Shown one piece after another: positions 15,187 through 34,204 of a DNA stretch of 64,000 nt (positions are counted from its first letter, which is position 1; every line of letters begins with the position of its first letter). This stretch comes from Aquilaria yunnanensis (taxonomy: Eukaryota > Streptophyta > Magnoliopsida > Malvales > Thymelaeaceae): assembly GCA_039654915.1 (NCBI GenBank), contig CM077597.1, positions 90,460,001-90,524,000 on the forward strand, in the 5' to 3' direction. A program made the translations under genes and the position numbers. The notes beneath the pieces are model-generated. The model saw only the letters and a program-made list of their open reading frames with translations, did no database searches and was not told the origin of the DNA.

Positions 15187-15463
15187 TGTGGCAACGTCGG
15201 GTTTTCTGGAGTCGCCACCAATCAGTTTACTTAGGTCGATTGGTCACCTTAAAATTGGTCTGCGAGAGTTCGGAGATCGGGAGTACGGTTACGTTAAAAC
15301 AACTTTGTTAAAACGCCCAAAAAATTGGCACCTTAGTTGATTTTAATTTTGTTTTGCTTTGCTTTTAAATAATTCTCAGTTAATTTTCAAAATTAGAAAT
15401 TTTAACTGGATTAGTCGAAATGTGGATTTTTAAATTAATTAATTTGTATGAAATTTTATACTT

Positions 15464-15778
15464 CCGAACCATGGACTCTGCCGAGTCATTTGGACACGGA
15501 AGATTTGATTCCGAACCATGGACTCTGCCGAGTCATTTGGACACGGAATTTGGTGAAATTTAAATAATTTAATCCATATTGTAAACATGGATTTTTATCT
15601 TTGTATTTATTTAATTTATTTATTTTAAAAAGTTTGATATTTTCCAAACCGTAGATCCTACCGGATCATCCGGATATGGAATTTAATTTGCTGGTTTGCA
15701 ATCTGGATTTCGTTATTCAATTTTAATTAATTTTTAATATCCAAACCATGGATCTTGACAGACCACCTGGACATGGAT
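15464..15778. repeat. Four ~38-bp palindromic motifs inside the LTR
   Basis: Copies lie at 15464-15501, 15511-15548, 15644-15681 and 15741-15778. The first two are identical (ccgaaccatggactctgccg then agtcatttggacacggaa). The last two are diverged but keep the ccAAACCnTnGAtC ... GGATATGGA frame. Each contains gactc/gagtc-type self-complementarity. The same four motifs occur in the other LTR at +15990. Confidence 0.75.
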
Positions 15779-17140
15779 ATAATCCGTCTTAGGATTTTAT
15801 CAAACCTACTAAGAACGGATTTGCAAACATTTGAATGCTTCTTAACCAATAATTTGGTGCACATTAGATGTATTACAAGAATTAAAATTAAACTATTGTA
15901 AAAAATAAAGATAAATAAATATGCATAAATATACATATTAAATCAAAATCCTATGTTGTTCTCCTCTGTCACTTTAATGATCAAATTAATTGTAAGGGTA
16001 AGCTAATAATAATAGAGAAAACAAAAAGGTAAAAATAAATAAAAATTTGCTGTCAGTGACTAGTCTGTAAAATAAAAAAAAGTTAGTGATTGAATGAATG
16101 AATATGAAATGATGAATGAGTAAAAGAGAGTTATACTATCAAAATAAATAATATATATATATGTATATATTTAAATTTTTGCCAAAACAGAGTCTCAGCT
16201 CAAAAATTTTTTACTTTTACTTCCCGTTCGATTCAGATGATCAGACGGTGGAGGGGAAACGGCAATTGGGTATCAACAGATACAAATGGGCAGCTTTATG
16301 AATCGAAGGACCTTCTATCAATAGTAAATCTTCCCAAATTATTTGAACTAATGTACAGAGAACTTTTGAAGAGTGAAATTGTATACACGATTTTGAAAAT
16401 ATAGAGTTATTTGAACATATCCTTTTTGTAACTTCATACCAAATCCATAGAAGTGCCCTAGCAAATTTAAGAAGCAGAAGATTTAAATTTAACACATAGT
16501 TTGCTTCTTGATCGCAATCAAGACCGTTATGCGGAACTGTATATAAGAAGACTGAAGAACATCCAAATCAACCTGACCCTTTCAAAGTGTAACAGATTTG
16601 GTATCACTAGAACATGATTTTTTTTTCTGAACTACGGTGTTCTAAAATGTTAAAAAAAAACATAAAAAACTAAGCAAATGAACACAAGCAGGTATTAACC
16701 ACCCAAATCATATTTGTAAAGTAATACTTTTGTGCGGCTGACTATTTGCAACTATGAACAAGCAAATAACTAAATCCAATGCATCAAACCTACAAAACAG
16801 AGGAAAAATAAAAAAGAAATAAAATAAAAGTTAAATAAACATCAAACGCAAGTTATGGCAACACGTTGTACCCTGCCTATAAGAACATTGTTTAATATCT
16901 GCCATCAAACTCAAAGAAAAACTATGAAAGTCAGTCTGATGGAAACCGTATATTATACTTAAGTAAAAAAAAAAAAAATTGGAGGAAACGATAAAAATTC
17001 AAATAACGGATCAAATAAAAATCAATAAATTTGTAACCAAGAGGAAGCTGGGCTTAGGTCTGGCTGAAAGGGGAGGAAAAGGAAAAAGAAGTTCCTGGTC
17101 TTGACAATTATTTTCCGGCTGTGACCGGGTATCCGATCTC

Positions 17141-17760
17141 ATGTCTCCGGGTCGGAAAAACCACGAACAACAAGCTGCAGATTATCCTGATGCCTACCAG
17201 ATCGATGTCCAAAACTTCTTTCGTCTCTTGTCGGTGAAGGACACGAGGAAGCAGGAGGGAGCAAGTACAGAACCTTACAGGGAATCACCTTCCCGATCAA
17301 GCAGCTGCCGCCGCCAGGATCCAGGCGGCATACCACTCCCATAGCATCTGATCCCTCTACCGGCGGATTTTCGCGATGAATGCGTGGGCCGACAGGGTCC
17401 AGGCCTTGATCCAGCGGCAGGAAACGGTGGGCGCCGTCTTGAGAGATAATCGGGAGAAGCTGAGGATGAACGCGACCTTGATGCGACTACTGCTGGAGCT
17501 GGACTCTGTTCCAGAGTTCGGCCCGACGGTGAGGGAAGAGAGGAAGAAGGTGAGCCGTCAGATCGTGGGGCTGCAGAAGATTCTGGATGGGATCACAGAG
17601 GTGAGGGTGGAGAATTATGGAGACGGGTGGTCCAAAGAGGTTTGTTCTGTTGGGACGAGGCGGTGGAGGAGATGGAGGAGCGGGCGTGATGAGGGTGAAA
17701 GAGAGAGGATTAGTGAGAGAGATGCAGCTAGGAGAGAGAGAGCAGCTGGGAGAGCTTTGT
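17141..17760 (+). pseudogene. BAG-domain co-chaperone fragment captured in left LTR
   Basis: The open frame starting at 17376 contains a plant BAG-type helix pattern: RMNATLMRLLLELDSV, then VREERKKVSRQIVGLQ and LDGITE, at about residues 28-75. BAG proteins are Hsp70 co-chaperones, and this spacing is closest to the plant IQ-containing BAG5/6/7-like group. Just upstream in the same frame RIQAAYHSHSI resembles an IQ (calmodulin-binding) motif, but a TGA (17349-17351) stands where Arg (CGA) is expected. A WDEAVEEMEERA-like tail is reached only by a frameshift near 17640, and further upstream the frame is broken again. It lies antisense to the element, is GC-rich relative to the rest of the LTR, and is not expected to encode a full protein. 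Confidence 0.72.
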
Positions 17761-18213
17761 GAGCTCCTCTCTGTCTGTTCCCCCAGGGAGAGAGAGATGA
17801 GAGAATGATTAAGTAAAAAGAGAAGAAGAATCGAGAATGGATCAGGTGAGGCTGTTGAGCTCGTTTGTCTGGTGTGGAAAAAAAATGCAAAAGGGGGAGG
17901 AGACTTTAATGCTAATCAGGGGAGGGTTCAGCCAGGGGAGGAATTTTCTGTTTTTAATTTTAATTTTTAATTCTTTTAATTAATTAATAATTAATTAAGA
18001 AATAATTAATAATTAATTAATATTTCTAATACATACATACAGATATATATGTATACCTATATATATATTTTAACTAACACCATATGACAAAAATGTCCCC
18101 CATTACACTAATAATATATTAGTTTTTGTTAAATTATTTTCTTTTTTTTTTTAATTAATAATTTTTAATTAATTAATTTTTTTTTCACAGTCGGACAAAA
18201 TTGGGTGTCAACA

Positions 18214-18228
18214 GCTGCCCCCCTTTGC
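18214..18228 (-). promoter_or_regulatory. Polypurine tract for plus-strand DNA priming
   Basis: On the minus strand, GCAAAGGGGGGCAGC directly abuts the LTR start TGTTGACACC. A purine run immediately upstream of the 3' LTR is the normal plus-strand primer site, and it independently fixes the element orientation. Confidence 0.85.
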
Positions 18229-18299
18229 ATGCTTCATGGGACATGATGTATGCAAAGTCGTTATCCAATTTCGTCCGGCTTAGCTAGGCATTGAGAATT

Positions 18300-19610
18300 T
18301 TCTCGTCGCCTAAACTCAGAGGTTAAGGAATCTTCCTTAGAGCCTCTGCGATAGGAACTCTCCTATCATTGAAGGAAAAATTTGATAATTTTGAGGTTAA
18401 GGGTGCTACCTTAGAACCTCGACGATAGGAACTCTCCTATCGTTTGAAGGAAAATTGATGATTTTGAGGTTAAGGGTCCTACCTTAGAACCTCGACGATA
18501 GGAACTCTCCTATCGTTTGAAGGAAAATTAATTGTTTTTGAGGTTAAGGGTCCTACCTTAGAACCTCGACGAAAGGAACTCTCCTATCGTTTGAAGAAAA
18601 AATTGATTGTTTTGAGGTTAAGGGTCCTACCTTAGAACCTCTAACGATAGGAAAGGTTCTATCGTTGTAAGATGGACTGAATGATTGATTGTTTGTTTGA
18701 GGTTTAAGGAAAGGTCCTTAGAACCTCTAACGATAGGAAAGGTTCTATCGTTGTAAGATGGACTGAATGATTGATTGTTTGTTTGTGGTTTAAGGAAAGG
18801 TCCTTAGTACCTCTAACGATAGGAAAGGTTCTATCGTTGTAAGATGGACTGAATGATTGATTGTTTGTTTGAGGTTTAAGGAAAGATCCTTAGAACCTCT
18901 AACGATAGGAAAGGTTCTATCGTTGTAAGATGGACTGAATGATTGATTGTTTGTTTGAGGTTAAGGAAAGGTCCTTAGAACCTCTAACGATAGGAAAGGT
19001 TCTATCGTTGTAAGATGGACTGAATGATTGATTGTTTGTTTGAGGTTAAGGAAAGGTCCTTAGAACCTCTAACGATAGGAAAGGTTCTATCGTTGTAAGA
19101 TGGACTGAATGATTGATTGTTTGAGGTTAAGGAACTCTCCTTAGAACCTCGACGATAGGAACTCTCCCATCGTAGCAAGTTTGAGGTTAAGGGCCCTACC
19201 TTAGAACCTCTGCGATAAGAACTTTCTTATCGTTTGAAGAAAAATTGATGATTGATTGTTTGAGGTTTAAGGAACTCTCCTTAGAACCTCGACGATAGGA
19301 ACTCTCCTATCGTTGAAAGTTTGAGGTTAAGGGCCCTACCTTAGAACCTCTGCGATAAGAACTCTCTTATCGTTTAAGAAAAATTGATGATTAAGGTTAA
19401 GGGTCCTACCTTAGAACCTCGATGATAGGAACTCTCCTATCGTTTGAAGAAAAATTGATGATTTTGAGGTTAAGGGTCCTACCTTAGAACCTCGATGATA
19501 GGAACTCTCCTATCGTTTGGAGGAAAATTGATGATTTTGAGGTTAAGGGTCCTACCTTAGAACCTCGACGATAGGAACTCTCCTATCGTTTGAAGGAAAA
19601 TTGTTGGATG
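18300..19610. repeat. Tandem array A: hairpin-forming units of ~70-88 bp
   Basis: Units contain two perfect or near-perfect inverted repeats: gaggtt-taagg ... ccttag-aacctc, and CGATAGGA-actc-TCCTATCG. Units of about 68-73 bp flank a block (about 18640-19130) of six ~86-bp units with the variant cgataggaaaggttctatcg plus a gattgattgtttgttt spacer. RNA from either strand would fold into a string of stem-loops. The array sits between the LOG-like ORF and the polypurine tract, the position where plant Tat/Ogre-type elements are known to carry hypervariable tandem repeats. Confidence 0.9.
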
Positions 19611-20900
19611 TCGAGGTAAAGGTTTCATCCTTAAAACCTCGAATTGATTGATTGATCTCGAGGCAAAGGTTCCGTCCTTAAAACCTCGGATTGATTGATT
19701 GATTTCGAGGCAAAGGTTCCATCCTTAAAACCCCGATGATGAAAATTGATTTTGAGGCAAAGGTTTCATCCTTAAAACCTCAGATTGATTGATTGTTGTC
19801 GAGGCAAAGGTTTCATCCTTAAAACCTCGGATTGATAATTGATCTCGAGGCAAAGGTTCCATCCTTAAAACCCCGGATTGATTGATTGATCTCGAGGCAA
19901 AGGTTCTATTCTTAAAACCTCGGATTGATTGATTGATGTCGAGGCAAAGGTTTCATCCTTAAAACCTCGGATTGATTGATTGATGTCGAGGTAAAGGCTC
20001 CATCCTTAGAACCTCGAATTGATTGATTGATTTCGAGGCAAAGGTTCCATCCTTAAAACCTCGGATTGATGAAAATTGATTATTTTCGAGGCAAAGGTTC
20101 CATCCTTAAAACCCCGATGATGAAAATTGATTATTTTCGAGACAAAGGTTCCATCCTTAAAACCCCGATGATGAAAATTGATTGTTTTCGAGGCAAAGGT
20201 TCCATCCTTAAAACCCCGATGATGAAAATTGATTGTTTTCGAGGCAAAGGTTCCATCCTTAAAACCTCGGATTGATTGATTGATGTCGAGGTAAAGGTTC
20301 CATCCTTAAAACCTCGATCATGAAAATTGATTATTTTCGAGGCAAAGGTTCCATCCTTAAAACCCCGATGATGAAAATTGATTGTTTTCGAGGCAAAGGT
20401 TCCATCCTTAAAACCCCGATGATGAAAATTGATTATTTTCGAGGCAAAGGTTCCATCCTTAAAACCCCGATGATGAAAATTGATTCTTTTCAAGGCAAAG
20501 GTTCCATCCTTAAAACCCTGATGATGAAAATTGATTATTTTCGAGGCAAAGGTTCCATCCTTACAACCCCGATGAAAATTGATTGTTTTCGAGGCAAAGG
20601 TTCCATCCTTAAAACCCCGATGATGAAAATTGATTGTTTTCGAGGCAAAGGTTCCATCCTTAAAACCTCGGATTGATTGATTGATGTCGAGGTAAAGGTT
20701 CCATCCTTAAAACCTCGATCATGAAAATTGATTATTTTCGAGGCAAAGGTTCCATCCTTAAAACCCCGATGATGAAAATTGATTGTTTTCGAGGCAAAGG
20801 TTCCATCCTTAAAACCCCGATGATGAAAATTGATTATTTTCGAGGCAAAGGTTCCATCCTTAAAACCCCGATGATGAAAATTGATTTTGAGGCTAAGGAG
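19610..20900. repeat. Tandem array B: ~50-bp units, about 25 copies
   Basis: Units read cgaggcaaaggttccatcct then taaaaccccgatgatgaaaattgatt, in 49-51 bp versions. The half-sites gagg-caaagg and cctta-aaacctc are partly complementary, so this array is a diverged relative of array A. Many copies are 51 bp, a multiple of three, which leaves repetitive open frames on both strands (17-residue periodicity). These are by-products of the period, not genes. Confidence 0.9.
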
Positions 20901-21430
20901 CTTTCCTTAGGACCTCGAGCGAAATTTATATAAAAGCAATTGAAATTGGAATAATTTTCTTCGAAAGTGTGAATTTTCATAATTGGCGAGCGCAAAGAAT
21001 TAGGCTTCGATAAAACGAGTGAATCTTGATGATGACAATAACACTGACAAATTATGTAAATGGAGTGGATGTTTGGAATCAATATTCAAGGTTCATCTAA
21101 TATTTTCTTCAGTAAATATAGATTCCCTTGTGAGATATGTCATCCGAATAAGGTTAAAGCTTAACTACCCCAAAATGTTATGCCTAATAGACCTAATAGG
21201 ATGCGTCTCAAGAGTAATAAAAATTACTCTTTACTCAGCCATTCCAACCTAAAGGCATTGTCGCATGGTTTTAATATCAGCATGGACGAAACTATCTTAT
21301 AAAAAGAAATTCTCTGAAAAGAAAAACTGAAACGCGAAAGAAAATGCTGATAATAAAACTAAAGGACAAGAAAAACGGATCAGATCGCTTCTTTCTTCCA
21401 CAATACTTCAACAGGGTGAGTAGAGGACCA
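20901..21430. other. 3' non-coding region after the LOG-like ORF
   Basis: This is ordinary AT-rich DNA between the LOG-like stop codon (minus strand) and the hairpin array. No ORF or repeat is recognised. It would form the start of the element's 3' untranslated region. Confidence 0.5.
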
Positions 21431-22060
21431 TTATGGGAGTGAACTGGTCGGGAAAAACTGTCGTGTCCAGTCTATCTGAATCATTGCTGGATCTGGTTCA
21501 GGAACAAAAGCTTGTATTTTATCTAGCAATTCTTCAGCAGTTGTTGCGGATATTATGATTCGCCGTGCCACTCTTGATATGAAATTCTTCTGCATAGCAT
21601 AATCCATAAAAGCTATCAGACCTGTAAAGAAATTGTTAACATTCAAAAGCCCAATGGGTTTCTTATGCAAATTAAGTTGGGCCATGGAAGCAATTTGAAA
21701 GACTTCTCCCAATGTGCCAAAACCACCTGGTAGAGCGATAAAAGCATCAGCATTTAAAAGCATTTGTAACACACGCTCTTGCAAATTTTTAACCACTAAT
21801 TCTTCTCCAATCGTGCCCCCAGAAATAAATTTCAAAGGTCCAGGGATGATGCCCAAAACTTGACTTCCTCCTAAAGATGCTGCTGATGCTACACCTCCCA
21901 TTAATCCGACACTACCTCCTCCATAAACTAAATGTATTTTTCGCTCAGCTAATACTCTACCCAGATGGTTGGCTGCCTTTAAATACTCTTCATCTTTTCC
22001 AGGAAAAGCCCCAGAAAATACACAAATACTTCGGGATTTACGAGTTGGGGTTTTCTCCAT
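21431..22060 (-). CDS. LOG-like cytokinin riboside 5'-monophosphate phosphoribohydrolase, retroelement cargo
   Basis: LOG enzymes act in the cytosol and nucleus, removing ribose 5-phosphate from cytokinin nucleotides to give active cytokinin bases. The 209-aa product has the Rossmann-type motif LVYGGGSVGLMG (residues 44-55), the conserved Arg in LQERVLQM (R96) and the family catalytic motif PGGxGTxxE as PGGFGTLGE (111-119), followed by AQLNLHKKPIGLLNV. Length matches plant LOG proteins. In the usual TLEE version the first Glu is here Gly; the last Glu, part of the motif, is retained. Plant LOG genes typically have several introns but this copy has none, so it was probably captured as cDNA or descends from an intronless LOG-like copy. 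The start is the Met before EKTPTRKSR; an in-frame upstream Met at 22147 would add 29 hydrophobic residues and is less likely. A TATA-like box lies at 22091-22100. Confidence 0.9.
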   Translation of the reverse strand: MEKTPTRKSRSICVFSGAFPGKDEEYLKAANHLGRVLAERKIHLVYGGGSVGLMGGVASAASLGGSQVLGIIPGPLKFISGGTIGEELVVKNLQERVLQMLLNADAFIALPGGFGTLGEVFQIASMAQLNLHKKPIGLLNVNNFFTGLIAFMDYAMQKNFISRVARRIIISATTAEELLDKIQAFVPEPDPAMIQIDWTRQFFPTSSLP

Positions 22061-22090
22061 TCCTATCCTTACTCTTGTGAGAAAAGAGGA

Positions 22091-22100
22091 TATATTTATA
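22091..22100 (-). promoter_or_regulatory. TATA-like box upstream of LOG-like ORF
   Basis: TATAAATATA on the minus strand lies 31-40 bases before the chosen ATG. If used, transcription would start almost at the ATG, giving a very short leader. It is a sequence-pattern call only. Confidence 0.4.
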
Positions 22101-22149
22101 GAGATGAAGAGATAAAGCAATAATTTTATTTTCAAGAATGGATACATTA

Positions 22150-22560
22150 TTGCCAGCTATTCACAGTAGTCACGAGTATGACTCTGGTCAGGTATGGGTA
22201 CACTATCGTTAAAAGAGGAGGAAAATTTTCAAAATAGCTGCTAGCATGTACAGTAGTCACTACTGTAGCCTACGTCAGGAGTAGGTACGTGATTGTCAAA
22301 GGAGGAGGAAAATTTCAAAAGCGACAGTTAGCATGTACAGTATCGTGACTATGGCTCATGTCAGGAGTGGATACATTATCGCCGAAAGGGGAGGAAGATT
22401 TCAAAAGCGACAGCTAGCACGTACAGTAATCGTGACTTTGGTTCACGTCAGGAGTGGATACATTATTACCAAAAGGGGAGGAAAATTTCAAAAGCGACAG
22501 CTAGCACGTACAGTAATCGTGACTTTGATCCTCGTCTTCCACTGGCTTTGCGTCCAGTAA
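22150..22560. repeat. ~85-bp tandem module, about four copies, between LOG-like and zinc-cluster ORFs
   Basis: Copies share the order gtcaggagtggatacattat, then ggggaggaaaatttcaaaag, then cgacagctagcacgtacag and taatcgtgact. Single diverged copies of the same module lie at about 23265-23375 and 24080-24215, after each of the other two zinc-cluster ORFs. In sense orientation each module lies upstream of the next cargo ORF, so it is positioned like a promoter or enhancer unit. Confidence 0.8.
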
Positions 22561-22575
22561 TGGCTTCAATGCTTT

Positions 22576-23124
22576 CTATGAATCGGTGATTTGCATCTCA
22601 TCTAGCTTTCTCACAAACTGGCAAACAGGGTCGTTTAGGGTTAGATTCCCAAGACTGTAACGATCTCGTTCTTTTTGGAAAATTATCCATAATCCAACAA
22701 CCTCAAATTGCACTATTCCGCAAGAATGCGCTTCAAGAACTTTTCGAATATCTTCTAGAGATTCCTTACGCAAGCCATTCTTAATGAATCTTATTCTATC
22801 ATTACGATTTCTGGTGATCACTCCTGGAGAACGACATTTATTGCCGCAAATCCACCATCCACAATTATGACAAACGCCTAGCCTCTTTGCTCTTCTTTTT
22901 TTGGCATAAGCACTTTTACCAAAGCCGGGCATACGGGGAAAGAACGCTTCTGGAACTTCACCAGCTGAACGAACCTTAGCTTCAATTAGCCACCGCACAT
23001 TATCAGGAATGCCTTTGTGCATAAATAGTCGGAATCGTTCACATCTAGCTTGATAAACCTTTTTAAGAACATTTATTGGGAAAGAAGGGAAATATTTTCG
23101 TAGAGCGGAAAGAGAAGGCTCCAT
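22576..23124 (-). CDS. Zinc-cluster nucleic-acid-binding-protein-like ORF, copy 1 (sense-order third)
   Basis: The 182-aa protein has an N-terminal helical half (about residues 1-65), a basic patch KKRRAKRL (75-82), a Cys cluster CX2CX4CX3C (C85, C88, C93, C97), then PG ... N ... RFIKNG (100-117) and a C-terminal half ending in NDPVCQFVRKLD. A basic patch joined to a Cys cluster followed by PG-x-N-FI-x-G spacing is the layout of the nucleic-acid-binding proteins of carlaviruses and relatives (Viral_NABP/Carla_C4 type). Some of those act as RNA-silencing suppressors or host transcription activators. The C-terminal half goes beyond what I recall of that family. The Met in MEPSLSALRKYF is chosen because both sister ORFs start there; an in-frame Met five codons upstream is possible. 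A TATA-like box lies at 23233-23239. Confidence 0.82.
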   Translation of the reverse strand: MEPSLSALRKYFPSFPINVLKKVYQARCERFRLFMHKGIPDNVRWLIEAKVRSAGEVPEAFFPRMPGFGKSAYAKKRRAKRLGVCHNCGWWICGNKCRSPGVITRNRNDRIRFIKNGLRKESLEDIRKVLEAHSCGIVQFEVVGLWIIFQKERDRYSLGNLTLNDPVCQFVRKLDEMQITDS

Positions 23125-23232
23125 TGATGAATGAGGCATTTAAGAGAAAAAGAAAGAAATTAGTGATTGTAGGAAATGGAAATAACTGAATTTGGGAGTT
23201 ATGGAGTACCGTATCCAGAAGGAAGAACACGC

Positions 23233-23239
23233 ATTTATA
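23233..23239 (-). promoter_or_regulatory. TATA-like box upstream of zinc-cluster copy 1
   Basis: TATAAAT within cactataaatgcgtgttctt on the minus strand lies about 110 bases before the ATG. The same context recurs upstream of copy 2, so it was duplicated with the gene. Confidence 0.45.
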
Positions 23240-23388
23240 GTGATGAAAGGATAATGCGTTTATTACACTTACGGAAGTAAGTACATTATTGCCAAAAGAA
23301 AAGACAAATGACAGCTTATATGTACAGCAATCATGACTGTGGCTCTCATCTTCCACTAATTCATGTCCAGTAATGGCTTCAATGCCTT

Positions 23389-23937
23389 CTATAAGTCGGG
23401 GATTTGCTTCCCATCTAGTTTTCTTACAAACTGACAAACGGGGTCGTTTAAAATCACATTCCCAAGACTGTAACGGTTTCGTTCTTTATGGTAAGTCCTC
23501 CATAAACCGATAATTTCACCTTGCACTTTTCCACAAGAATGCGTTTCAAGAGTCTCTCGGATATCTTTCAGAGACTCCTTACGCAGGCCATTCTTAATGA
23601 ATTTTCTTTTATCTTCACGATTTATGGAGATGTATCCTAAAGAGCGACATTTAGTATTACAATTCCATCGCCCACATTTATAACACACGCCTAGTCTCTT
23701 TGCTCTTCGCCTTTTGGCATAACGGCTTTTACCTAAACCGGGCATACAGGGCACAAATGCATCTGAAACTTCACCAGCCGAGCGGACCTTAGCTTCGATT
23801 AGCCACCGCACATTATCAGGAATGCCTTTGTGCATAAAGACTCTAATCCTTTCACATCTAGCTTGGTAAATCATTTTAAGAACATTTATTGGGATGGAAG
23901 GAAAGTATTTTCGCATGGCGGAAAGAGTAGAATCCAT
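23389..23937 (-). CDS. Zinc-cluster nucleic-acid-binding-protein-like ORF, copy 2 (middle)
   Basis: This intact 182-aa ORF is colinear with its two neighbours without a single insertion or deletion and is roughly three quarters identical to each. It keeps the basic patch KRRRAKRL, the cluster CYKCGRWNCNTKC (CX2CX4CX3C), KFIKNG and the NDPVCQFVRKLD tail. The second Pro-Gly position reads SLG instead of SPG. Frame and spacing of all four Cys are conserved while many other residues differ, which argues for past selection on the protein. It lies 264 bases downstream (sense) of copy 3's end region and has its own TATA-like box. It is a nucleic-acid-binding protein by resemblance; function is unproven. 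Confidence 0.82.
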   Translation of the reverse strand: MDSTLSAMRKYFPSIPINVLKMIYQARCERIRVFMHKGIPDNVRWLIEAKVRSAGEVSDAFVPCMPGLGKSRYAKRRRAKRLGVCYKCGRWNCNTKCRSLGYISINREDKRKFIKNGLRKESLKDIRETLETHSCGKVQGEIIGLWRTYHKERNRYSLGNVILNDPVCQFVRKLDGKQIPDL

Positions 23938-24057
23938 TGATAAAAGAAGAATTTGAGAGAAGAGATGAAGAAATCAGTTGTTGTAGGAGACTGGAATAAC
24001 CGACTTTAGAAGTCACGGGGTATCTTATCCGCTTCTTCATCAGAAGGAAGAACACGC

Positions 24058-24226: not shown

Positions 24227-24775
24227 CTATGAGTCGAGGATTTGCTTCCCATCCAGTTTTCTTACAAGCTGGCAAACAGGGTCATTTACAGTCAGATTCC
24301 CGGGACTGTAACGGTTTCGTTCTTCATGAAAAATGCTCCACAAACCAAGTAGTTCACGTTGCACAGATCCACAAGAATGCGTCTCAAGAGTCAATTGGAT
24401 ATCATCCAACGAGTCTTTACTCAGGCCATTCTTAATGAATCGTATTTTATCTTCTCGATTATCAGAGATCATCCCTAAAGAACGACATTTAGTATTACAA
24501 GTCCACCGTCCACATTTATGGCAGACTTGTAACCTTTTCGCTCTTCGCTTTTTGGCATAAGAGCTTTTGCCTATACCAGGAATGTGAGACACAAATGCCT
24601 CTGGGATTTCACCTGCTAGACGAACCTTGGCTTCGATTAACCACCGCACATCTTCAGGGATTCCTTTGTGCATCAGAACTCTTAATCGTTCACAGCGAAC
24701 TTGGTAGATCTTTTTGAGGATGTTCATTGGGAGAGAAGGGAAATACTTTCGCAAGGCGGAAAAAGTAGGATCCAT
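24227..24775 (-). CDS. Zinc-cluster nucleic-acid-binding-protein-like ORF, copy 3 (sense-order first)
   Basis: This intact 182-aa ORF has the same architecture: helical N-terminal half with MHKGIPEDVRWLIEAKVR, basic patch KKRRAKRL, cluster CHKCGRWTCNTKC, RFIKNG, and tail NDPVCQLVRKLD. Start-to-start distances between the three copies are about 813 and 838 bp, so they arose by tandem duplication of one unit. The 5' flanks are similar to each other (cggatac/taag-tactccgtgact near -70). A weak ATATAAAA word lies farther upstream near 24925. No similarity to host gene families was recognised. Confidence 0.82.
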   Translation of the reverse strand: MDPTFSALRKYFPSLPMNILKKIYQVRCERLRVLMHKGIPEDVRWLIEAKVRLAGEIPEAFVSHIPGIGKSSYAKKRRAKRLQVCHKCGRWTCNTKCRSLGMISDNREDKIRFIKNGLSKDSLDDIQLTLETHSCGSVQRELLGLWSIFHEERNRYSPGNLTVNDPVCQLVRKLDGKQILDS

Positions 24776-27700
24776 TTTCTAGGAGGAAGTAAAAGAAAGA
24801 AGGGGTGAAGGAATCAGTTATTATGGGCAACTGAGAGAACCGACTTGAGAGTCACGGAGTACCGTATCCGCCGTTTAACCGGAAAAGTAGATCCTACTTC
24901 ATTTTGATAGATATTTTTTTTTTTTATATTCCATCGAGCTGACGTCGATCCAGTCCTCGATTATTGAATCCATTGTCCGCTTTTGACAAATTTTCAACGA
25001 CAATATTTCTTGATGTCTGCCTTATCTTTGACTATCTCTTATCTTGGATGCTGCTAAGTTGACATCAATCCTGTCCTTCCAGGTGTAGCCTCGATTATTG
25101 AATCAATTGCCAGGCTTTTGACAATATTGTCTATTTTATATATATATTTTTTTTATATCTGCCTTATCCTTGGCTATAGCTATCTCTTATCTTGGATACT
25201 ACTAGCTGGCGTCAATCCTATCCTTCCAGGTGTAGCCTCGATTATTGAATCGGTAGCCAAGCTTTTGACAACATTGTCTACTTTATCCTTGAATTCCTGA
25301 TGCGGGTTGGTCCCGCATATTAGCTGTGTATCCAGTGATAGATTGGTAAAAGCTGATGACATTGAGATCTCAGCTTATACTGCTGTAACTGTGCTGTGAA
25401 TGTGATTCCCGTTTGGTCCTTGTTATGTAAAGGCTATATATGCATGATATGAAATGCATGAATGCAGAGCATGTGTAACTAATGGCTTTTTTTTTTTTGT
25501 ATGGATCTAGTTCTTTATGTCTTTGTTTTACTGGATCCTCTTTATGATGGCCTTCTTGGACTATCATTGAATCTCTTTATGCTTTTCAGCTTTTGTTCGC
25601 TGCCTCAAAAGCCCAACTCTTTTCAAAATCCGCTTTCTTTGACTTGTTCTTGAATTTTGGCCTCAATTTCTTTAATGTTCGCTCGCCTCATACTTTATAT
25701 CTCTTCAAATACTCATCCCTTGTCATGGATTTCATACTATCAAAGGCTTGACTTTCAATGTTTCATTGTCCCTTTTCTTGTGGCCGTGTCGACACTTGTT
25801 TACCCCCATGTTACAGTCCGAATGATTGCTCTTCCTTATACTCAGGTTCTGATCCATAAGACTTACCCCCTTGTCTATTGAGCTTCTTTCTTGGCAGTGC
25901 TCTTCTTACGCTTAGTAGAGACTACTTTGCCCCCTTGAATATGGTGTTTATGTGGATAAAAGGTATCATCTCATCTTCGATTTAACAGAAGGTTGAGCAT
26001 TTCTAGACCTTTGTGATGGTCCTTGATCATGAATTTCTCTTACAAGAACCACATCTTATTAAAGAAAGACTCAAGCTATCTCCTTACTTTTAAGTCTACA
26101 TACATTAATGAATAATGGTTTGGCCTTAAAGAAAAACTTTCATCAATTTGTAAAGCTTGACAAAGTAATTTACGGTCTTTGTTTTTAATTAAAATATCCT
26201 GCCATTCTTCCCCTTCCAACTCGAAGACATAAACTGTGCAAGGCAATAAGGTAGAAACATGATTCACAAGGATAGCCTTTTAGCTGAATGAAGATGATAT
26301 CGAGAGGTAACTGTTAGGTGTGAAGAAAATTAAGTTTGAATGTTTTTTTTTTGTTTTGTTTTGTTTTTTAGCTGAATGAGAATAATATTAAGAGGTAAAT
26401 ATTAGGTCTGAGTAAAGTTAGGTTTGAGTGGTGTGAAAGAAGGGTGTTTTAATACTACTCGTGAGCAGTATTAAATAAGGTAGAAACATGGTTTGCAATG
26501 ATAGCCTTTTAACTGAATGAGGATGTTCGGTTTGAGAAAAGTTAAATTTAAGTGGTGTGGAATAAGGGTCTTTTAATACTACTCGTGAGCAGTATTAAAT
26601 AAGGTAGAAACATGTTTCACAATGATAGTCTTTTAGCTGAATGAGGATGATAAGTCTGAGGAAAGTTAAGTTTAAGTGGTTTGAAAGAAGGGTCTTTTAA
26701 TACTACTCGTGAGCAAATTTGATTATGGTAAAAAAAAACTTAATAGTGATGACCTCAAACTTGCCACGTTTTCTAGAAAGTTGGACCTCATCTGTTGCCC
26801 CCCAACTATCGTAATCTTTATGTACGCTTGTCTTGAGGGTTGCTTTTGTCTTCTAAACCGCCTTTGCAGGTTTTCAGTCTAGAATCCATAGCTCACTTTT
26901 TTTCTTTTTCTTTTTTTGGCTCTAACTTGAGCTTCATTTCTTTTCTTTTTTGTTTGTTTTTTTTTTTTGTTTCCCTTTCCTTTTTTTTTTGTGAGCTATG
27001 GTGATGACATACTTGATAACTCTCTTGAAGTGAGATGACTCAAGTGGCCTTGCTTGCTCGTGCTTGTTCTTAGTCATTTTTGGTTTTGAATTTTCCCTTG
27101 TTGTCTTTTGATGGAAGGGATGAATTTCTCTTTTCGGAGTTTGTGTTGCAAAGAACTGAGATCATAGCCCTCTTGAAGTGAAATGATTCAAGTGGCCTTA
27201 GTTGCTTGTGTTTGCTCTCAGTCTCTCTTTTTTTTTGTTTTGGATTTTCCCTTTAATGGCTTTTGATGGAAGGGAGGAACTTCTTTCCTTTGTTGGAATT
27301 TGTGTTGTGGAGAACTGAGAATTTTTTTTTTTGTATTGAGCATTTGTGAGAATTGGGAGACCACTGAAGTCATTTAATATGAGAGCTAACTTCTTTAGAA
27401 GTTAATCCCGGACTCCTTGCAAGGATGTTGATAACCACTGTGAGTTTTTTTTTTTAAGAGTTGGGGTGCAACATATGAAATCATTCTTGCTAGATTTAGT
27501 AGTACTTTCCAGATCATCACTATCAAATCTCCCTTAACTTTTTATTTTCACCCACGAGTAGTATCATTTAGAAAGCAAAGTATGATGGCAATAATAGTTA
27601 GTGCAATGGTAAAGATTGAGAGATAGAGGTAAAAATGAAATTTTTGGTAAAAAGTGGTAGAATGTGTAGGTGTAATAATTGAATTAAAAAGTGGTATAAT

Positions 27701-28063
27701 GCACACATAACATCTTTTTGTTGGAGAACAAAAAGGATTACCGGTTGTCAAAAAGTAAAGTGTGATGACAATAATGGATAGTATAATGGCAAAGAGTGTA
27801 TAAATGGAAAGTAGTAGAATGCACGCATTACATCTTTTTGTTGTACCAGAAAAAGAATACCAAGTGTCCATCTAACAAAGACTACACCCTAGATTCTGGA
27901 CTAAATCTAGGAGATTTTTACTATTAGATTACTTTTGCAAGCTTTCAAAGATACAAGTTTATTCAAAGGATTCCTTGTCATTCAAAAGTGTGTGCGGACT
28001 ATTAGGTCAGATCTGACTTGGAGCCCTTCCAAAATCAATGTAATTCCAGCTCAAAATCTTCAC
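24776..28063. repeat. 3.3 kb non-coding part of element, built from local tandem duplications
   Basis: No open frame with family features is present where pol would be expected. Instead there are at least four local duplications: about 24945-25285 (~130-bp unit with gtagcctcgattattgaatc, 2-3 copies); about 26240-26715 (~125-bp unit, about 4 copies, several with the palindrome aatactactcgtgagcagta); about 27005-27330 (~165-bp unit, 2 copies with caagtggcctt); and about 27545-27860 (2-3 copies with tacatctttttgttg). The 107-codon minus frame at 27548-27871 overlaps the last set and is not supported as a gene. Confidence 0.75.
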
Positions 28064-28205
28064 TTTCAATTACCAATCACATCGGGCCTAGCAGCTTGAC
28101 CTCGGTTTTGTTTGATTTGTAGAGGAATGGCCTTGGGACTTGACGGCTTAAGAGTAGGTTTTGAGATTGGTATAGCATTGACTTTTTGTTCTTTAATGAT
28201 CACAT
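28064..28205 (-). pseudogene. Decayed post-gag (gag-pro linker) remnant, frameshifted
   Basis: Directly after gag, another minus frame continues from about 28220 as FYDDVNVIIKEQKVN, then PISKPTLKPSSPKAIPLQIK, and stops near 28064. This Pro/Lys-rich continuation is what normally follows the second Cys-His motif in Gag-Pro linkers of Ty3/gypsy elements. Gag itself leaves this frame by what looks like a 1-base shift within the last codons (ending IVFMMM). The protease and everything downstream are missing, so this is the scar of pol loss. Confidence 0.6.
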
Positions 28206-29957
28206 TCACATCATCATAAAAACGATAAGTTGGGATGAGTCTATGAGTCTTTGCAGATTCTTACGGAATTCTGAGCATTCTTGGATAGAATGACTCTTAC
28301 TGTCATGAAAGTTGCACCATTCCTCATCTTCAACTTCTTCATGTCCAAAAGAAGGCTTTCCCATGATAATCCCTTCTTTCACAAGGCATGAATATACATG
28401 CTTAAGAGGGGTTATGATATCATTGACTGACTTTTTCATCAGCCGGTGTTCTTCTATCATATTGACTGGTTTTTCTTGATGAGGCGGCAATGGATTGTGA
28501 GTGACGTTCGGTTCATCGGAAAAGTCCAACCACTTTGATTCGATTAATTGTTGGACTATACGTTTCAATGCTGTGCAATTTTCCAAGCCATGGCCTGGAA
28601 CGCCATCATGATATGGGCAAGTTATGTTGGGGTCATACCACGTTGGATATGGGGGTCCAAATGGATTTGTAGGAATTGGACGGATAAGTTGACTTTCTAT
28701 GAGTTTTGGATACAACTCAGTGTAAGTCATGGGAATTGGTGCAAAAACTTCTTTTGGTTTTTGTGTGGGTACTGGAGGAGTCGGAACAGGTGGCCGTAAC
28801 TGATTAGGCCTGTTGAGAGGATAATTGTTGGGCCTATTGGGAGGATAATCATTAGGCCTATTGGAAGGATAATCATTGGGCATATTGGGAGGATAGTCAT
28901 TGGGCCTATTGGTAGGATAATAATTGGGCCTTTTGGCATAATAGGATAGGCGAGGACCGGTAGCCACAGTGCCTACGAGGGGAATCCCTCTTTCGCGTCC
29001 TATTTGTTGTACTTCTTCATCTTTTGTTCTGGATGGTCCTCCTCTTTTCATAGGATCACTAAAGGACTCAGCAATCTTCCCAGTCCTAATCCCATGCTCG
29101 ATCCTTTCTCCAGACATGACAACATCGGAGAAATTAGTTGCCGAATTGCCAATGAGTTTGTCATAATATGGGTATTTCAGTGTCTGGACAAACAAAGTGA
29201 CCATTTCTTTTTCTGTCATGGGTGGCTGAACTTGTGCAGCTAAGTCCCTCCACCGTTGGGCATATTCCTTGAAAGTTTCTGGCTTTTTCTTCTCCATGTT
29301 TTGGAGAGTTTGGCGATCCGGAGCCAAGTCCATAACATGTTTATAGTTGCCGATGAAGGCCTGAGCAAGGTCATTCCAAGTTTTGATGTTTCTTGGTCCT
29401 TGACTTAGATACCACTGCAATGCTGATTTTGTGAGACTTTCCTGAAAAAGTGCAATCCACACCTTTTCATCTTTTGTGAGTGGTTGTAGTCTCCTTAGGA
29501 ACAGTGTGATGTGAGTGATGGGATCACTCGTTCCATCGTATTTTACAAAATCCGGTACTTTAAAGTCCGAAGGGATTATGACGTCTGGCACTAAGCAGAG
29601 GTCATCCACTGAGAGAGATCCGAATATATTACCTCCTTCAATGGCTCGCAGTCTCTTCTCTATTGTTTCGAGTTTTTGAGATTCTCCTTCTTCCTTTGGT
29701 GGTGTCTTCTTCTCTTCATACACAGTGTCTTGTTTCAGGTGAACACTAGCAGACTGTCCTGGTTCTTGAAACAGGTTTTCTTGGACTGAGACTCGTTGTG
29801 GGGTGAATCCCGGAGTATAAGTGGGATCTTGTGCTTCTTTGATGGGAACTTGAGTTGCTTTCCCTTTGATTATTTCCATCAATTGTCTCATTTGTTCTGC
29901 CATACTTTCAATCTTGGACTCTATATCTATGAGACGTCCTTCAGTTTGCTCTGCCAT
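28206..29957 (-). CDS. gag: Gag polyprotein of Ty3/gypsy-type element
   Basis: This intact 583-aa ORF supplies the structural protein of the virus-like particle. Order: N-terminal coiled coil (about 1-35); second helical/charged stretch (about 85-107); retrotrans_gag core (about 125-295, with FVKYDGTSDP, LQWYLSQG, FKEYAQRWRDLAAQV); Asn-Tyr-Pro-rich tandem octapeptides of the NRPNDYPP type, about six copies (343-386); then two zinc-knuckle-like motifs, C447-x2-H-x5-H-x4-C461 and C548-x2-H-x4-H-x4-C561, which use His at the second ligand instead of the standard CX2C. It starts with the first Met, after a leader of about 1.2 kb. No protease motif (D-S/T-G) follows. Intact coding in a young insertion suggests the protein is still used, perhaps with polymerase supplied in trans. 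Confidence 0.92.
   Translation of the reverse strand: MAEQTEGRLIDIESKIESMAEQMRQLMEIIKGKATQVPIKEAQDPTYTPGFTPQRVSVQENLFQEPGQSASVHLKQDTVYEEKKTPPKEEGESQKLETIEKRLRAIEGGNIFGSLSVDDLCLVPDVIIPSDFKVPDFVKYDGTSDPITHITLFLRRLQPLTKDEKVWIALFQESLTKSALQWYLSQGPRNIKTWNDLAQAFIGNYKHVMDLAPDRQTLQNMEKKKPETFKEYAQRWRDLAAQVQPPMTEKEMVTLFVQTLKYPYYDKLIGNSATNFSDVVMSGERIEHGIRTGKIAESFSDPMKRGGPSRTKDEEVQQIGRERGIPLVGTVATGPRLSYYAKRPNYYPTNRPNDYPPNMPNDYPSNRPNDYPPNRPNNYPLNRPNQLRPPVPTPPVPTQKPKEVFAPIPMTYTELYPKLIESQLIRPIPTNPFGPPYPTWYDPNITCPYHDGVPGHGLENCTALKRIVQQLIESKWLDFSDEPNVTHNPLPPHQEKPVNMIEEHRLMKKSVNDIITPLKHVYSCLVKEGIIMGKPSFGHEEVEDEEWCNFHDSKSHSIQECSEFRKNLQRLIDSSQLIVFMMM
28800..28945 (-). repeat. 24-bp tandem repeats within gag
   Basis: About six copies of a 24-bp unit (ggcctattgggaggataatc on the plus strand) encode the NRPNDYPP-like octapeptides. 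Copies differ mainly in one or two codons. Confidence 0.85.
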
Positions 29958-31155
29958 TAGTCTTGTTTGGAGCCGAGTTGAATATCGGTGTTGAGGTCCA
30001 ATTTTACCTTTTTAAAGGAATATTTATTTTATTAGATTCTATGCGTATATGATTGATGTGATGGATGCATGCAATGAGATTATGTTTTTATCAAAATTTA
30101 TATGCACGTGATTGATGTAATGGAATGCATGCAATGAGATTATTTTTATCAGATTTTATATGCGTGTGATTGATGTAATGGATGCATGCAATATAAAGTG
30201 AGATTATGTTTTTATCAGACTTTATATGCACGTGATTAATGTAATGGAATGCATGCAATGAGATTATTTTTATCAGATTTTATATGCATGTGATTAATGT
30301 AATGGAATGCATGCAATGAGATTATTTTTATCAGATTTTATATGCGTGTGATTGATGTAATGGAATGCATGCAATGAGATTATTTTTATCATACTTTATA
30401 TGCACGTGATTAATGTAATGGAATGCATGCAATGAGTGAGTTTGCTTATCCATTATCGTAGAACTTCAAAACTTTTAGTTGTCATTATAAAGACCAAAAA
30501 GTTAGCATAATTTGATGCGTGGTTTTGATGCATGAAGAATAATTGTACAAGAAAGATAAGGTTATTAATAAGTTAAATAGCAATTAACAACTCATGAAGT
30601 ATTATGGAAAAATGAATTAAAACCATAAATATAAGACACGAAGAAAATAAAAGTGTAGAGCAACAACATAGCATAACAAGGACGTGCTTATGGCGTTGGT
30701 AAAATGGTAGAAATTCTATGGTTAGTTCTATGGTTAAGTGGGGAGTTCTATATGCATAAGGTAGCTTATCAAAAAGGCAAGGGATAGTTCCCGAATCCCG
30801 TCACTAAATCATAGTGACGGCCCGATTCCTTACCCTCTAGGGTTAATGTAAGGAATGGATTAATTCGAGTCGTAGCTTTTCGTGGGCCCATGCAGAGACT
30901 AACCGTCTCAGAAGGCAATACACTACTTTGCTACTTTGAAACCGGTGAAGGCTTGGAGACCGTGGCCTCACAAGGACAGCAACACCAATTCCGCTTAGAA
31001 AGAATCGTGTTTGATTTAAGGAAGCTCGGGTATAGAGCTTCATATTGTGAATGCATTATGCATGTTTAGAATAAGTAAATATAACATATAAATCCACATA
31101 ATAAGCAAAGTAAATCAAAACAAATCAACTTTAGGCTCGACTCACTAACGTGGAG
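29958..31155 (-). other. Element leader between PBS and gag
   Basis: This is about 1.2 kb of untranslated leader. It contains the 58-bp tandem array at 30036-30440. A moderately GC-rich stretch follows at about 30780-31030, with an inverted repeat (gtcactaaatcatagtgac near 30800) and short ORFs only. RNA packaging and dimerisation signals would be expected here, but none can be identified by eye. Confidence 0.6.
30036..30440. repeat. 58-bp tandem repeat in leader, about seven copies
   Basis: Units read tatatgcacgtgattgatg then taatggaatgcatgcaatga and gattatttttatcag. Alternate copies carry gcacgtga (containing the CACGTG-like G-box core) or gcgtgtga, and all carry the palindromic atgcatgca word. 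Confidence 0.88.
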
Positions 31156-31173
31156 TCCCCAGTGGAGTCGCCA
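31156..31173 (-). promoter_or_regulatory. Primer-binding site
   Basis: On the minus strand TGGCGACTCCACTGGGGA lies three bases (gct) after the LTR end CA. It starts with TGG, the complement of the tRNA 3' CCA. Sites of this TGGCGACTCC type are, from memory, frequent in Tat/Ogre-like plant elements and attributed to tRNA-Arg; the tRNA was not verified here. The first 11 bases (TGGCGACTCCA) also occur within the LTR end at 31197-31207. Confidence 0.85.
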
Positions 31174-31176
31174 AGC

Positions 31177-34100
31177 TGTGGCAACGTCGGGTTTTCTGGA
31201 GTCGCCACCAATCAGTTTACTTAGGTCGATTGGTCACCTTAAAATTGGTCTGCGAGAGTTCGGAGATCGGGAGTACGGTTACGTTAAAACAACTTTGTTA
31301 AAACGCCCAAAAAATTGGCACCTTAGTTGATTTTAATTTTGTTTTGCTTTGCTTTTAAATAATTCTCAGTTAATTTTCAAAATTAGAAATTTTAACTGGA
31401 TTAGTCGAAATGTGGATTTTTAAATTAATTAATTTGTATGAAATTTTATACTTCCGAACCATGGACTCTGCCGAGTCATTTGGACACGGAAGATTTGATT
31501 CCGAACCATGGACTCTGCCGAGTCATTTGGACACGGAATTTGGTGAAATTTAAATAATTTAATCCATATTGTAAACATGGATTTTTATCTTTGTATTTAT
31601 TTAATTTATTTATTTTAAAAAGTTTGATATTTTCCAAACCGTAGATCCTACCGGATCATCCGGATATGGAATTTAATTTGCTGGTTTGCAATCTGGATTT
31701 CGTTATTCAATTTTAATTAATTTTTAATATCCAAACCATGGATCTTGACAGACCACCTGGACATGGATATAATCCGTCTTAGGATTTTATCAAACCTACT
31801 AAGAACGGATTTGCAAACATTTGAATGCTTCTTAACCAATAATTTGGTGCACATTAGATGTATTACAAGAATTAAAATTAAACTATTGTAAAAAATAAAG
31901 ATAAATAAATATGCATAAATATACATATTAAATCAAAATCCTATGTTGTTCTCCTCTGTCACTTTAATGATCAAATTAATTGTAAGGGTAAGCTAATAAT
32001 AATAGAGAAAACAAAAAGGTAAAAATAAATAAAAATTTGCTGTCAGTGACTAGTCTGTAAAATAAAAAAAAGTTAGTGATTGAATGAATGAATATGAAAT
32101 GATGAATGAGTAAAAGAGAGTTATACTATCAAAATAAATAATATATATATATGTATATATTTAAATTTTTGCCAAAACAGAGTCTCAGCTCAAAAATTTT
32201 TTACTTTTACTTCCCGTTCGATTCAGATGATCAGACGGTGGAGGGGAAACGGCAATTGGGTATCAACAGATACAAATGGGCAGCTTTATGAATCGAAGGA
32301 CCTTCTATCAATAGTAAATCTTCCCAAATTATTTGAACTAATGTACAGAGAACTTTTGAAGAGTGAAATTGTATACACGATTTTGAAAATATAGAGTTAT
32401 TTGAACATATCCTTTTTGTAACTTCATACCAAATCCATAGAAGTGCCCTAGCAAATTTAAGAAGCAGAAGATTTAAATTTAACACATAGTTTGCTTCTTG
32501 ATCGCAATCAAGACCGTTATGCGGAACTGTATATAAGAAGACTGAAGAACATCCAAATCAACCTGACCCTTTCAAAGTGTAACAGATTTGGTATCACTAG
32601 AACATGATTTTTTTTTCTGAACTACGGTGTTCTAAAATGTTAAAAAAAAACATAAAAAACTAAGCAAATGAACACAAGCAGGTATTAACCACCCAAATCA
32701 TATTTGTAAAGTAATACTTTTGTGCGGCTGACTATTTGCAACTATGAACAAGCAAATAACTAAATCCAATGCATCAAACCTACAAAACAGAGGAAAAATA
32801 AAAAAGAAATAAAATAAAAGTTAAATAAACATCAAACGCAAGTTATGGCAACACGTTGTACCCTGCCTATAAGAACATTGTTTAATATCTGCCATCAAAC
32901 TCAAAGAAAAACTATGAAAGTCAGTCTGATGGAAACCGTATATTATACTTAAGTAAAAAAAAAAAAAAATTGGAGGAAACGATAAAAATTCAAATAACGG
33001 ATCAAATAAAAATCAATAAATTTGTAACCAAGAGGAAGCTGGGCTTAGGTCTGGCTGAAAGGGGAGGAAAAGGAAAAAGAAGTTCCTGGTCTTGACAATT
33101 ATTTTCCGGCTGTGACCGGGTATCCGATCTCATGTCTCCGGGTCGGAAAAACCACGAACAACAAGCTGCAGATTATCCTGATGCCTACCAGATCGATGTC
33201 CAAAACTTCTTTCGTCTCTTGTCGGTGAAGGACACGAGGAAGCAGGAGGGAGCAAGTACAGAACCTTACAGGGAATCACCTTCCCGATCAAGCAGCTGCC
33301 GCCGCCAGGATCCAGGCGGCATACCACTCCCATAGCATCTGATCCCTCTACCGGCGGATTTTCGCGATGAATGCGTGGGCCGACAGGGTCCAGGCCTTGA
33401 TCCAGCGGCAGGAAACGGTGGGCGCCGTCTTGAGAGATAATCGGGAGAAGCTGAGGATGAACGCGACCTTGATGCGACTACTGCTGGAGCTGGACTCTGT
33501 TCCAGAGTTCGGCCCGACGGTGAGGGAAGAGAGGAAGAAGGTGAGCCGTCAGATCGTGGGGCTGCAGAAGATTCTGGATGGGATCACAGAGGTGAGGGTG
33601 GAGAATTATGGAGACGGGTGGTCCAAAGAGGTTTGTTCTGTTGGGACGAGGCGGTGGAGGAGATGGAGGAGCGGGCGTGATGAGGGTGAAAGAGAGAGGA
33701 TTAGTGAGAGAGATGCAGCTAGGAGAGAGAGAGCAGCTGGGAGAGCTTTGTGAGCTCCTCTCTGTCTGTTCCCCCAGGGAGAGAGAGATGAGAGAATGAT
33801 TAAGTAAAAAGAGAAGAAGAATCGAGAATGGATCAGGTGAGGCTGTTGAGCTCGTTTGTCTGGTGTGGAAAAAAAATGCAAAAGGGGGAGGAGACTTTAA
33901 TGCTAATCAGGGGAGGGTTCAGCCAGGGGAGGAATTTTCTGTTTTTAATTTTAATTTTTAATTCTTTTAATTAATTAATAATTAATTAAGAAATAATTAA
34001 TAATTAATTAATATTTCTAATACATACATACAGATATATATGTATACCTATATATATATTTTAACTAACACCATATGACAAAAATGTCCCCCATTACACT

Positions 34101-34204
34101 AATAATATATTAGTTTTTGTTAAATTATTTTCTTTTTTTTTTTAATTAATAATTTTTAATTAATTAATTTTTTTTTCACAGTCGGACAAAATTGGGTGTC
34201 AACA
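31177..34204 (-). repeat. LTR (5' LTR in element orientation), 3028 bp
   Basis: This is the promoter-side LTR of the element. It matches the left LTR along its whole length at an offset of 15990, rising to 15991 after the A-run near 32966, where one extra A is the only difference I saw. It contains the same palindromic motifs (31454-31768) and the same BAG-like fragment. Transcription should start within it on the minus strand; TATA-like words lie around 34035-34060. Confidence 0.95.
33132..33751 (+). pseudogene. BAG-domain co-chaperone fragment captured in right LTR
   Basis: This is the same fragment as in the left LTR, base for base as far as read. The IQ-like segment with an in-frame TGA is at 33340-33342, the BAG-domain frame starts at 33367, and the frameshifted tail near 33630 leads to a WDEAVEEMEERA-like end. 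Being in both LTRs shows it was fixed in the LTR before this insertion; LTR replication then copies it. Confidence 0.72.

Follow-up and report, generated by a model that had tools for sequence, protein, structure and literature searches.

A 64,000-nucleotide stretch of the Aquilaria yunnanensis genome (GCA_039654915.1, contig CM077597.1, positions 90,460,001 to 90,524,000; hereafter the window) contains, at 15187-34204 and in minus-strand orientation, a long terminal repeat (LTR) retrotransposon that lacks pol and carries four extra genes: three resembling viral nucleic-acid-binding proteins (NABPs) and one resembling LONELY GUY (LOG). Pol-bearing relatives carry this cargo too, and we consider the window copy best explained as a pol-less derivative of a Tat-type family with a selected accessory block, a reading to which we give a probability of about 0.7. 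Our structural account of the element, its family and its cargo block is held with high confidence; what the cargo does is proposed below with more reserve. The features of the element, in its own 5' to 3' direction and in window positions, are as follows.

34205..34209, unstranded: right target site duplication AAATC, 5 bp
31177..34204, minus strand: 5' LTR, 99.93% identical to the other LTR
31155..31173, minus strand: primer binding site (PBS) TGGCGACTCCACTGGGGAC, found at the LTR end in other copies too; we take the tRNA to be Arg
30085..30494, minus strand: 58-bp tandem repeats in the leader ahead of Gag
28206..29957, minus strand: Gag, 583 aa (PF03732, E=7.4e-12)
24776..28205, minus strand: non-coding filler of ~3.4 kb at the expected pol site, with no pol match
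24227..24775, minus strand: NABP-like gene 1, 182 aa (PF05515 30.8 bits, cut-off 23; PF01623 27.0 bits, cut-off 20.9), with motif C-X2-C-X4-C-X3-C
23389..23937, minus strand: NABP-like gene 2, 182 aa (PF05515 28.9 bits; PF01623 21.1 bits)
22576..23139, minus strand: NABP-like gene 3, 187 aa (PF05515 27.1 bits; PF01623 22.5 bits)
21431..22147, minus strand: LOG-like gene, intronless (PF03641, 1.8e-30); conserved part from 22060, 209 aa
18263..20921, minus strand: tandem repeat array in the interval from LOG to the polypurine tract, with units of ~51, 47, 86 and 74 bp
18214..18226, minus strand: polypurine tract (PPT) AAAGGGGGGCAGC, the same sequence as in the pol-bearing copy L070
15187..18213, minus strand: 3' LTR, on the low-coordinate side, 99.93% identical to the other LTR
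15182..15186, unstranded: left target site duplication AAATC, 5 bp

An earlier note, made from these letters alone, had described a perfect target duplication and nearly identical 3-kb LTRs, and both were confirmed: AAATC stands on either side, and the LTRs are 99.93% identical, with one mismatch and one gap across 3,032 aligned columns. Judged by its sequence, the window copy is a young, recently inserted, pol-less element. The PBS and PPT that the note had reported were located, and its statement that pol is missing also held, since the reverse transcriptase (RT)-RNase H and integrase pieces of copy L057 find no match in 18214-31176; nor did a Pfam scan of 9 of the 30 listed pieces (at least 45 aa) of the interval between gag and the NABP genes yield a pol domain. 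A stretch homologous to the filler occurs in L057, where pol lies directly upstream. The Gag that the note called intact does have its PF03732 frame, although its C-terminus may be truncated, because the frame stops at 28206 while an overlapping one continues to 28066. Likewise, the four intact sense open reading frames (ORFs) that it set before a 3' array are present as three NABP-like genes and one LOG-like gene, but the minus-strand orientation puts the array at the low-coordinate end.

To place this copy among its relatives, as the earlier note had advised, we sought the cargo throughout the host genome (842 Mb, with eight contigs 87-120 Mb long). With no more than two mismatches allowed, there are 2,621 occurrences of a 30-base segment taken at the LOG active site and 3,177 of one taken in NABP gene 1, counts of presence only that take in copies with and without open frames; reversed-pattern controls for both segments gave 0 occurrences. 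In full-length searches, all 150 scored NABP-1 matches (the best of 8,277 first-look candidates) were full length, 98-100% identical and stop-free, and all 150 scored LOG matches (the best of 3,664) were 99-100% identical and stop-free.

Twenty copies spread over the NABP-1 match list were then fetched. The NABP genes precede LOG in 20/20, and LOG is intact in 15 of the 19 scorable copies, the twentieth being cut by the end of its stretch. NABP genes number three in 16 copies, two in three and four in one (L056), and across the family the number ranges from two to four (L056, L065-L068, L042, L049, L051) through gain or loss of ~0.8-kb units. A full-length Gag frame was found in 6/20, with the qualification that Gag lies near the stretch edge and its absence is not certain for every copy. 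L043 and L050 retain the leader and flanks and have lost most of gag; despite that loss, L043 keeps all four cargo frames open. In 19/20 copies there was no pol match within ~5.8 kb upstream of NABP 1. Since the cargo ORFs recur intact in so many copies, they are far beyond what chance would leave. The earlier note had equated absence or general breakage of these ORFs in other copies with a one-off capture; the cargo is present in the fetched copies and shows purifying selection there, and the conserved order together with the genome counts rules such a capture out.

The remaining fetched copy, L057, has pol directly upstream of its cargo, with frames partly broken, in the domain order RVT_1, RT_RNaseH, RVT_3 (a second RNase H), Integrase_H2C2 and rve. 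An additional RNase H in this position, ahead of integrase, is the published hallmark of Ogre and Retand, two Tat clades of angiosperms (Neumann et al. 2019, PMC6317226). A G-patch domain, another possible RNA-binding addition, lies upstream of the RT at 3-863 of L057. When the genome was searched with the L057 RT piece, all 64 scored matches, the best of 35,192 first-look candidates, were stop-free and mostly lay in a frame of 1,144 codons. The stretch downstream of five of these matches was examined and held the cargo in 5/5: in four copies LOG and all four NABP genes are open, and the fifth, L064, has a broken LOG and one open frame among its three NABP genes. Downstream of LOG, the pol-bearing C1 copy resembles the window copy in its type of array (in L070, units of the same kind stand at the matching place), and its PPT and the first 16 bases of its LTR are identical to those of the window copy.

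By sequence comparison, the cargo belongs to a Ty3/gypsy Tat-type (Ogre/Retand-like) family and the window copy is a pol-less derivative of it; the Tat membership of this copy rests on the common cargo, PPT and LTR end, the second RNase H having been read in L057. Because the pol-bearing relatives have the cargo too, it is a property of their family. The earlier note's account of a gag-only element with an organised set of intact cargo genes is sustained for the cargo, which is however not peculiar to a gag-only element. The window copy has gag and no pol, as TR-GAG elements do, but pol-bearing relatives exist and some copies are without most of gag. The C1 copy (L069 1-2001, L070) shares the LTR start, has a non-aligning LTR body and contains a GC-rich stretch within it; in this family the body of the LTR may therefore be subject to turnover, perhaps through uptake of host pieces.

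All three window NABP-like proteins pass the cut-offs of PF05515 (viral nucleic-acid-binding) and PF01623 (Carlavirus C4), bearing out the note's description of virus-like nucleic-acid-binding genes. Eight of nine reversed or shuffled controls were scanned and none matched either family; three of them gave weak matches to other families only (E at least 0.069). Each protein has a basic stretch followed by C-X2-C-X4-C-X3-C, a motif found in 51 of 52 intact NABP genes from the window and the 20 copies. The predicted structure was too poor for use (pLDDT 56), a sequence comparison with the PDB returned no match, and a pattern search of IMG/VR recovered no relatives of NABP, LOG or Gag; two IMG/VR contigs from a motif scan, with no relevant ORF on either, were taken as chance matches. 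The true start of NABP gene 3 is probably internal, at 23124, because 19/20 copies are without its first ATG. TATAAA boxes stand on the minus strand at 24064, 23239 and 22100, ahead of NABP 2, NABP 3 and LOG, those of the two NABP genes in the identical context ATCACTATAAATGCGTG; this suggests separate promoters for the three genes.

Selection on the cargo was assessed from ratios of mean nonsynonymous (dN) to mean synonymous (dS) divergence. Among intact frames of the pol-less copies, window included, the ratio was 0.10 for NABP 1 (19 sequences; biased low, since the copies had been ranked by NABP 1 and not by the other genes), 0.33 for NABP 2 (14), 0.15 for NABP 3 (15) and 0.21 for LOG (16), so that the comparison with Gag called for in the earlier note came out at 0.10-0.33 for the cargo and 0.37 for Gag (6). 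Bootstrap ranges over sequences stayed <0.45 in an earlier tally to which two-gene copies had contributed their second NABP twice. The comparison of pol-bearing with pol-less copies gave ratios of 0.12, 0.29 and 0.16 for NABP 1, 2 and 3, and 0.14 for LOG. The window paralogues differ from one another by dS 0.55-1.05 at ratios of 0.17-0.28, values which indicate that the NABP genes were kept long before this young insertion; among copies, by comparison, the mean dS of NABP 1 is 0.026 (earlier tally, L057 counted in). Spacers point the same way as the ratios: divergence is 0.0225 after NABP 1 vs 0.0076 within it (~threefold), 0.032 after LOG vs 0.021 within it, 0.066 vs 0.048 for NABP 3, and 0.16 vs 0.068 for NABP 2, the last spacer value coming from four sequences only. 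From these patterns we take the block to be a selected accessory module, not a passing capture.

The LOG-like protein combines a retained fold with an altered pocket. Among solved structures, Arabidopsis At2g37210 and At5g11950 come closest to it in both sequence and fold, and AtLOG3 (2a33) is the top PDB match on both counts (TM 0.94 by target length; model pLDDT 88.5). It scores 149.6 bits against TIGR00730 (cut-off 96.35) and, with no plant LOG run as a yardstick, 98.7 bits against the NCBIfam cytokinin-LOG equivalog NF058542, below the cut-off of 300. Its true start is probably internal, at 22060, because a TATA box sits at 22100. Pocket positions were assigned from the motif and from an alignment with Arabidopsis LOGs in 22 intact copies (16 from the pol-less set, four pol-bearing and the two top LOG matches). 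The PGGxGT loop and the catalytic pair R96 and E119 are kept in 22/22, and the PGGxGTxxE motif in 20/20 intact copies.

The residues around the base are another matter. In a study of the Corynebacterium glutamicum LOG (PMC4979012), Arg99 and Glu122 form the catalytic pair, Met96, Lys100 and Glu121 the adenine site, and Met96, His97, Lys100, Glu125 and Trp129 the proposed prenyl site, the last being the same in AtLOG3 and in rice and Claviceps LOGs. All five prenyl-site residues (M, H, K, E, W) are replaced in 22/22 element copies, by L93, Q94, V97 (L in one copy), Q122 and M126, and the adenine contact E121 is G118 in all 22. According to the same source, alanine changes of residues at the adenosine monophosphate site and of catalytic residues nearly abolish activity, and a change of Ser19 to Ala raises it; the element LOG has Ala at that position. 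Across the protein, 27/35 conserved LOG positions are kept, compared with 28/37 intermediate and 19/54 variable ones (first vs last, P=0.0002); a position counts as conserved if both Arabidopsis LOGs and no fewer than 90% of 26 bacterial LOGs agree there, the bacterial set excluding one long-branch row.

On these observations the LOG-like protein is under constraint and probably either active or nucleotide-binding, but it has a rebuilt base pocket and looks repurposed. Classical cytokinin activation is doubtful, because all five prenyl-site residues are replaced in every copy, and it is the least supported part of the earlier interpretation: the cytokinin-activating gene of the note keeps the LOG fold and catalytic pair and loses much of its claim to that activity. 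A bacterial origin of the gene was considered and rejected, as the element LOG joins the two Arabidopsis LOGs in a tree (support 99/98, long branch) that included 27 bacterial loci drawn from two word patterns only; bacterial genomes searched with element-specific LOG words gave no match.

We propose that the window copy was most likely copied in trans by pol-bearing relatives with a common PPT and LTR end, because these cis signals are shared and the insertion is recent. The NABPs would be nuclear, nucleic-acid-binding proteins that protect the element's RNA or DNA against silencing or reprogram transcription in the host, a role suggested by what is reported for their carlavirus counterparts: PMC8839810 describes carlavirus NABPs as silencing suppressors and symptom determinants, and associates the NABP of chrysanthemum virus B with a raised level of a factor tied to cell proliferation. 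The LOG-like protein may still cleave or bind a nucleoside 5'-monophosphate, probably not the classical N6-prenyl cytokinin precursor. Pol-less copies could retain the block if it acts preferentially on the RNA, or in the cell, that makes it; that pol-less and even partly gag-less copies keep it suggests a benefit to the encoding copy, and sequence exchange could also explain it. Silencing suppression, which the earlier note had also suggested and which stays plausible, or host-cell reprogramming is our best guess at the function of the cargo from kinship and conservation, and we put such a role at a little below even odds. More tentative still is the fuller proposal of a virus-like accessory region, with three or four NABPs and a LOG re-aimed at a non-cytokinin nucleotide, that would act jointly against silencing or nucleotide-based immunity and be selected even in pol-less copies.

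The same cargo can be read in other ways. The earlier note suggested promotion of host cell division through cytokinin. In an extended form of this idea, LOG would make active cytokinin, the NABPs would act like chrysanthemum virus B p12, which raises a proliferation regulator, and the element would multiply in dividing or germline-bound cells. The retained fold and catalytic residues suit this idea, as does the tie between a carlavirus NABP, uppL and cell proliferation (PMC8839810), and the Mycobacterium marinum LOG, which also departs at the prenyl site, may make other cytokinins (PMC4979012). The invariant loss of the prenyl residues and of the adenine contact, and the low equivalog score, make it quite unlikely all the same. 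A further reading has the LOG-like protein hydrolyse or sequester some other nucleotide, for instance a damaged one or a plant-immunity signal, while the NABPs block silencing: the phosphate-binding motif and catalytic pair are kept under constraint while the base and prenyl pocket is replaced in a fixed manner, and related folds bind varied nucleotides (PpnN). Both the substrate and the immune-nucleotide link are conjectural, however, and in this specific form we regard such a countermeasure to host defence as somewhat unlikely.

Alternatively, the NABPs could be structural helpers of the element, RNA chaperones or packaging factors with no host target. As basic zinc-finger proteins retained without pol, and in L043 even without most of gag, they fit a cis role on element RNA; Gag, however, carries a CxxH...HxxxxC stretch of its own and LOG would be left unexplained, and we think this unlikely. 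That the cargo is an old passenger, intact in appearance only because the copies are young, gains something from the near-identity of the LTRs and the low dS of NABP 1 among copies, but dN/dS is well below 1 also at the old splits between NABP paralogues and the spacer after NABP 1 is about three times as divergent as its coding sequence; this explanation is very improbable.

A number of observations nonetheless weigh against our preferred reading of a Tat-type derivative with a selected, virus-like block. Because the 20 copies derive from the highest-scoring NABP-1 matches, old and broken ones are under-represented; the five pol-bearing copies were selected for an RT similar to that of a cargo-bearing copy, a choice that could miss pol relatives without cargo. 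The restriction of dN/dS to intact frames and the low bias of the NABP-1 ratio count on the same side, and template switching between copies could make the cargo uniform among pol-less copies even if selection were not acting in them. The LTR body of the window copy finds no alignment with that of the pol-bearing C1 copy, so the proposed helper is some pol-bearing relative and no particular copy. For the NABPs, similarity to the viral families covers a short region, the narrowest Pfam margin is 21.1 vs 20.9 bits (gene 2, PF01623), and the carlavirus finger C-X2-C-X12-C-X4-C is not matched; for LOG, the M. marinum example shows that departure at the prenyl site may be compatible with making a cytokinin.

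Elsewhere in the window, another LTR belonging to the element's family (97.6% over 165 bp) starts at 63837-64000 and continues past the right window edge, and the minus strand at 46688-53991 holds RPS2-like NB-ARC and leucine-rich-repeat resistance-gene stretches across several frames (broken or intron-bearing), with a copia-type gag fragment nearby. One further feature lies within the LTRs; it adjoins CT-rich sequence and is apparently a captured piece of a host gene.

17376..17762, plus strand: BAG-domain ORF fragment in the LTR, antisense to the element (PF02179, 2.3e-11); second copy at 33367-33753

Gag and Pol are usually deemed sufficient for plant LTR elements, and the origin of most extra ORFs in them is not established. 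Here the extra genes have recognisable kin, an RNA-virus suppressor-type protein and a hormone-pathway enzyme, and form a fixed block with thousands of copies and a signature of selection; small proteins thus make the role of extra genes in a retrotransposon testable, and they include a LOG enzyme that stayed under constraint even as its cytokinin pocket was replaced. In the open-licence full-text literature we found no paper joining PF05515 and a retrotransposon and none joining LTR retrotransposon, carlavirus and nucleic acid binding protein, and the combination of LTR retrotransposon, LONELY GUY and gag led to PMC9289625 alone; neither NABP nor LOG appears in the available portion of a review on additional ORFs (PMC7264820). 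Of the undescribed system for which the earlier note saw a candidate, the NABP array, the combined NABP-LOG module and the remodelled LOG pocket were absent from the literature searched, whereas LOG in Ty3/gypsy elements has already been published.

The closest known systems include the Tat-lineage Ogre and Retand elements (PMC6317226). They resemble our family in the extra RNase H that L057 carries ahead of integrase, and in large size, long LTRs, tandem arrays and sense extra ORFs between pol and the 3' LTR. Plant mobile domain, Transposase_28 and Athila ORF-1, which that survey names as the prominent extra domains of these clades and of Athila, differ from this cargo, and it counts extra ORFs of at least 250 codons, a threshold at which genes of 182 and 209 codons would be missed. 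The nearest parallel to the LOG-like gene is the YgdH (LONELY GUY) domain in Ty3/gypsy elements of two Citrus species and Populus (Alvarado-Marchena et al. 2022, PMC9289625), likewise a LOG-family domain in RT-bearing Gypsy elements; compared by description, the available text has no NABP among the domains it names and does not discuss pocket residues. The same paper describes orchid Gypsy elements with an AlkB RNA demethylase, a conserved additional ORF whose counterparts occur in Alpha- and Betaflexiviridae as well and which was proposed to be important for host RNA control and had its activity tested in vitro; these differ from the window family in having another enzyme and a single gene.

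TR-GAG elements, for their part, have LTRs, PBS, PPT and gag and no pol; the window copy differs from them by its four extra genes and its descent from a cargo-bearing pol family. Finally, the cysteine-rich NABPs of carlaviruses share with the element proteins a basic stretch followed by a Cys finger, and above-cut-off matches to PF05515 and PF01623. The virus described in PMC8839810 has a C-X2-C-X12-C-X4-C finger, whereas the element proteins have C-X2-C-X4-C-X3-C, a length of 182 aa, tandem paralogues and a retrotransposon setting. This kinship makes gene flow between RNA viruses and retrotransposons, in either direction, likely.

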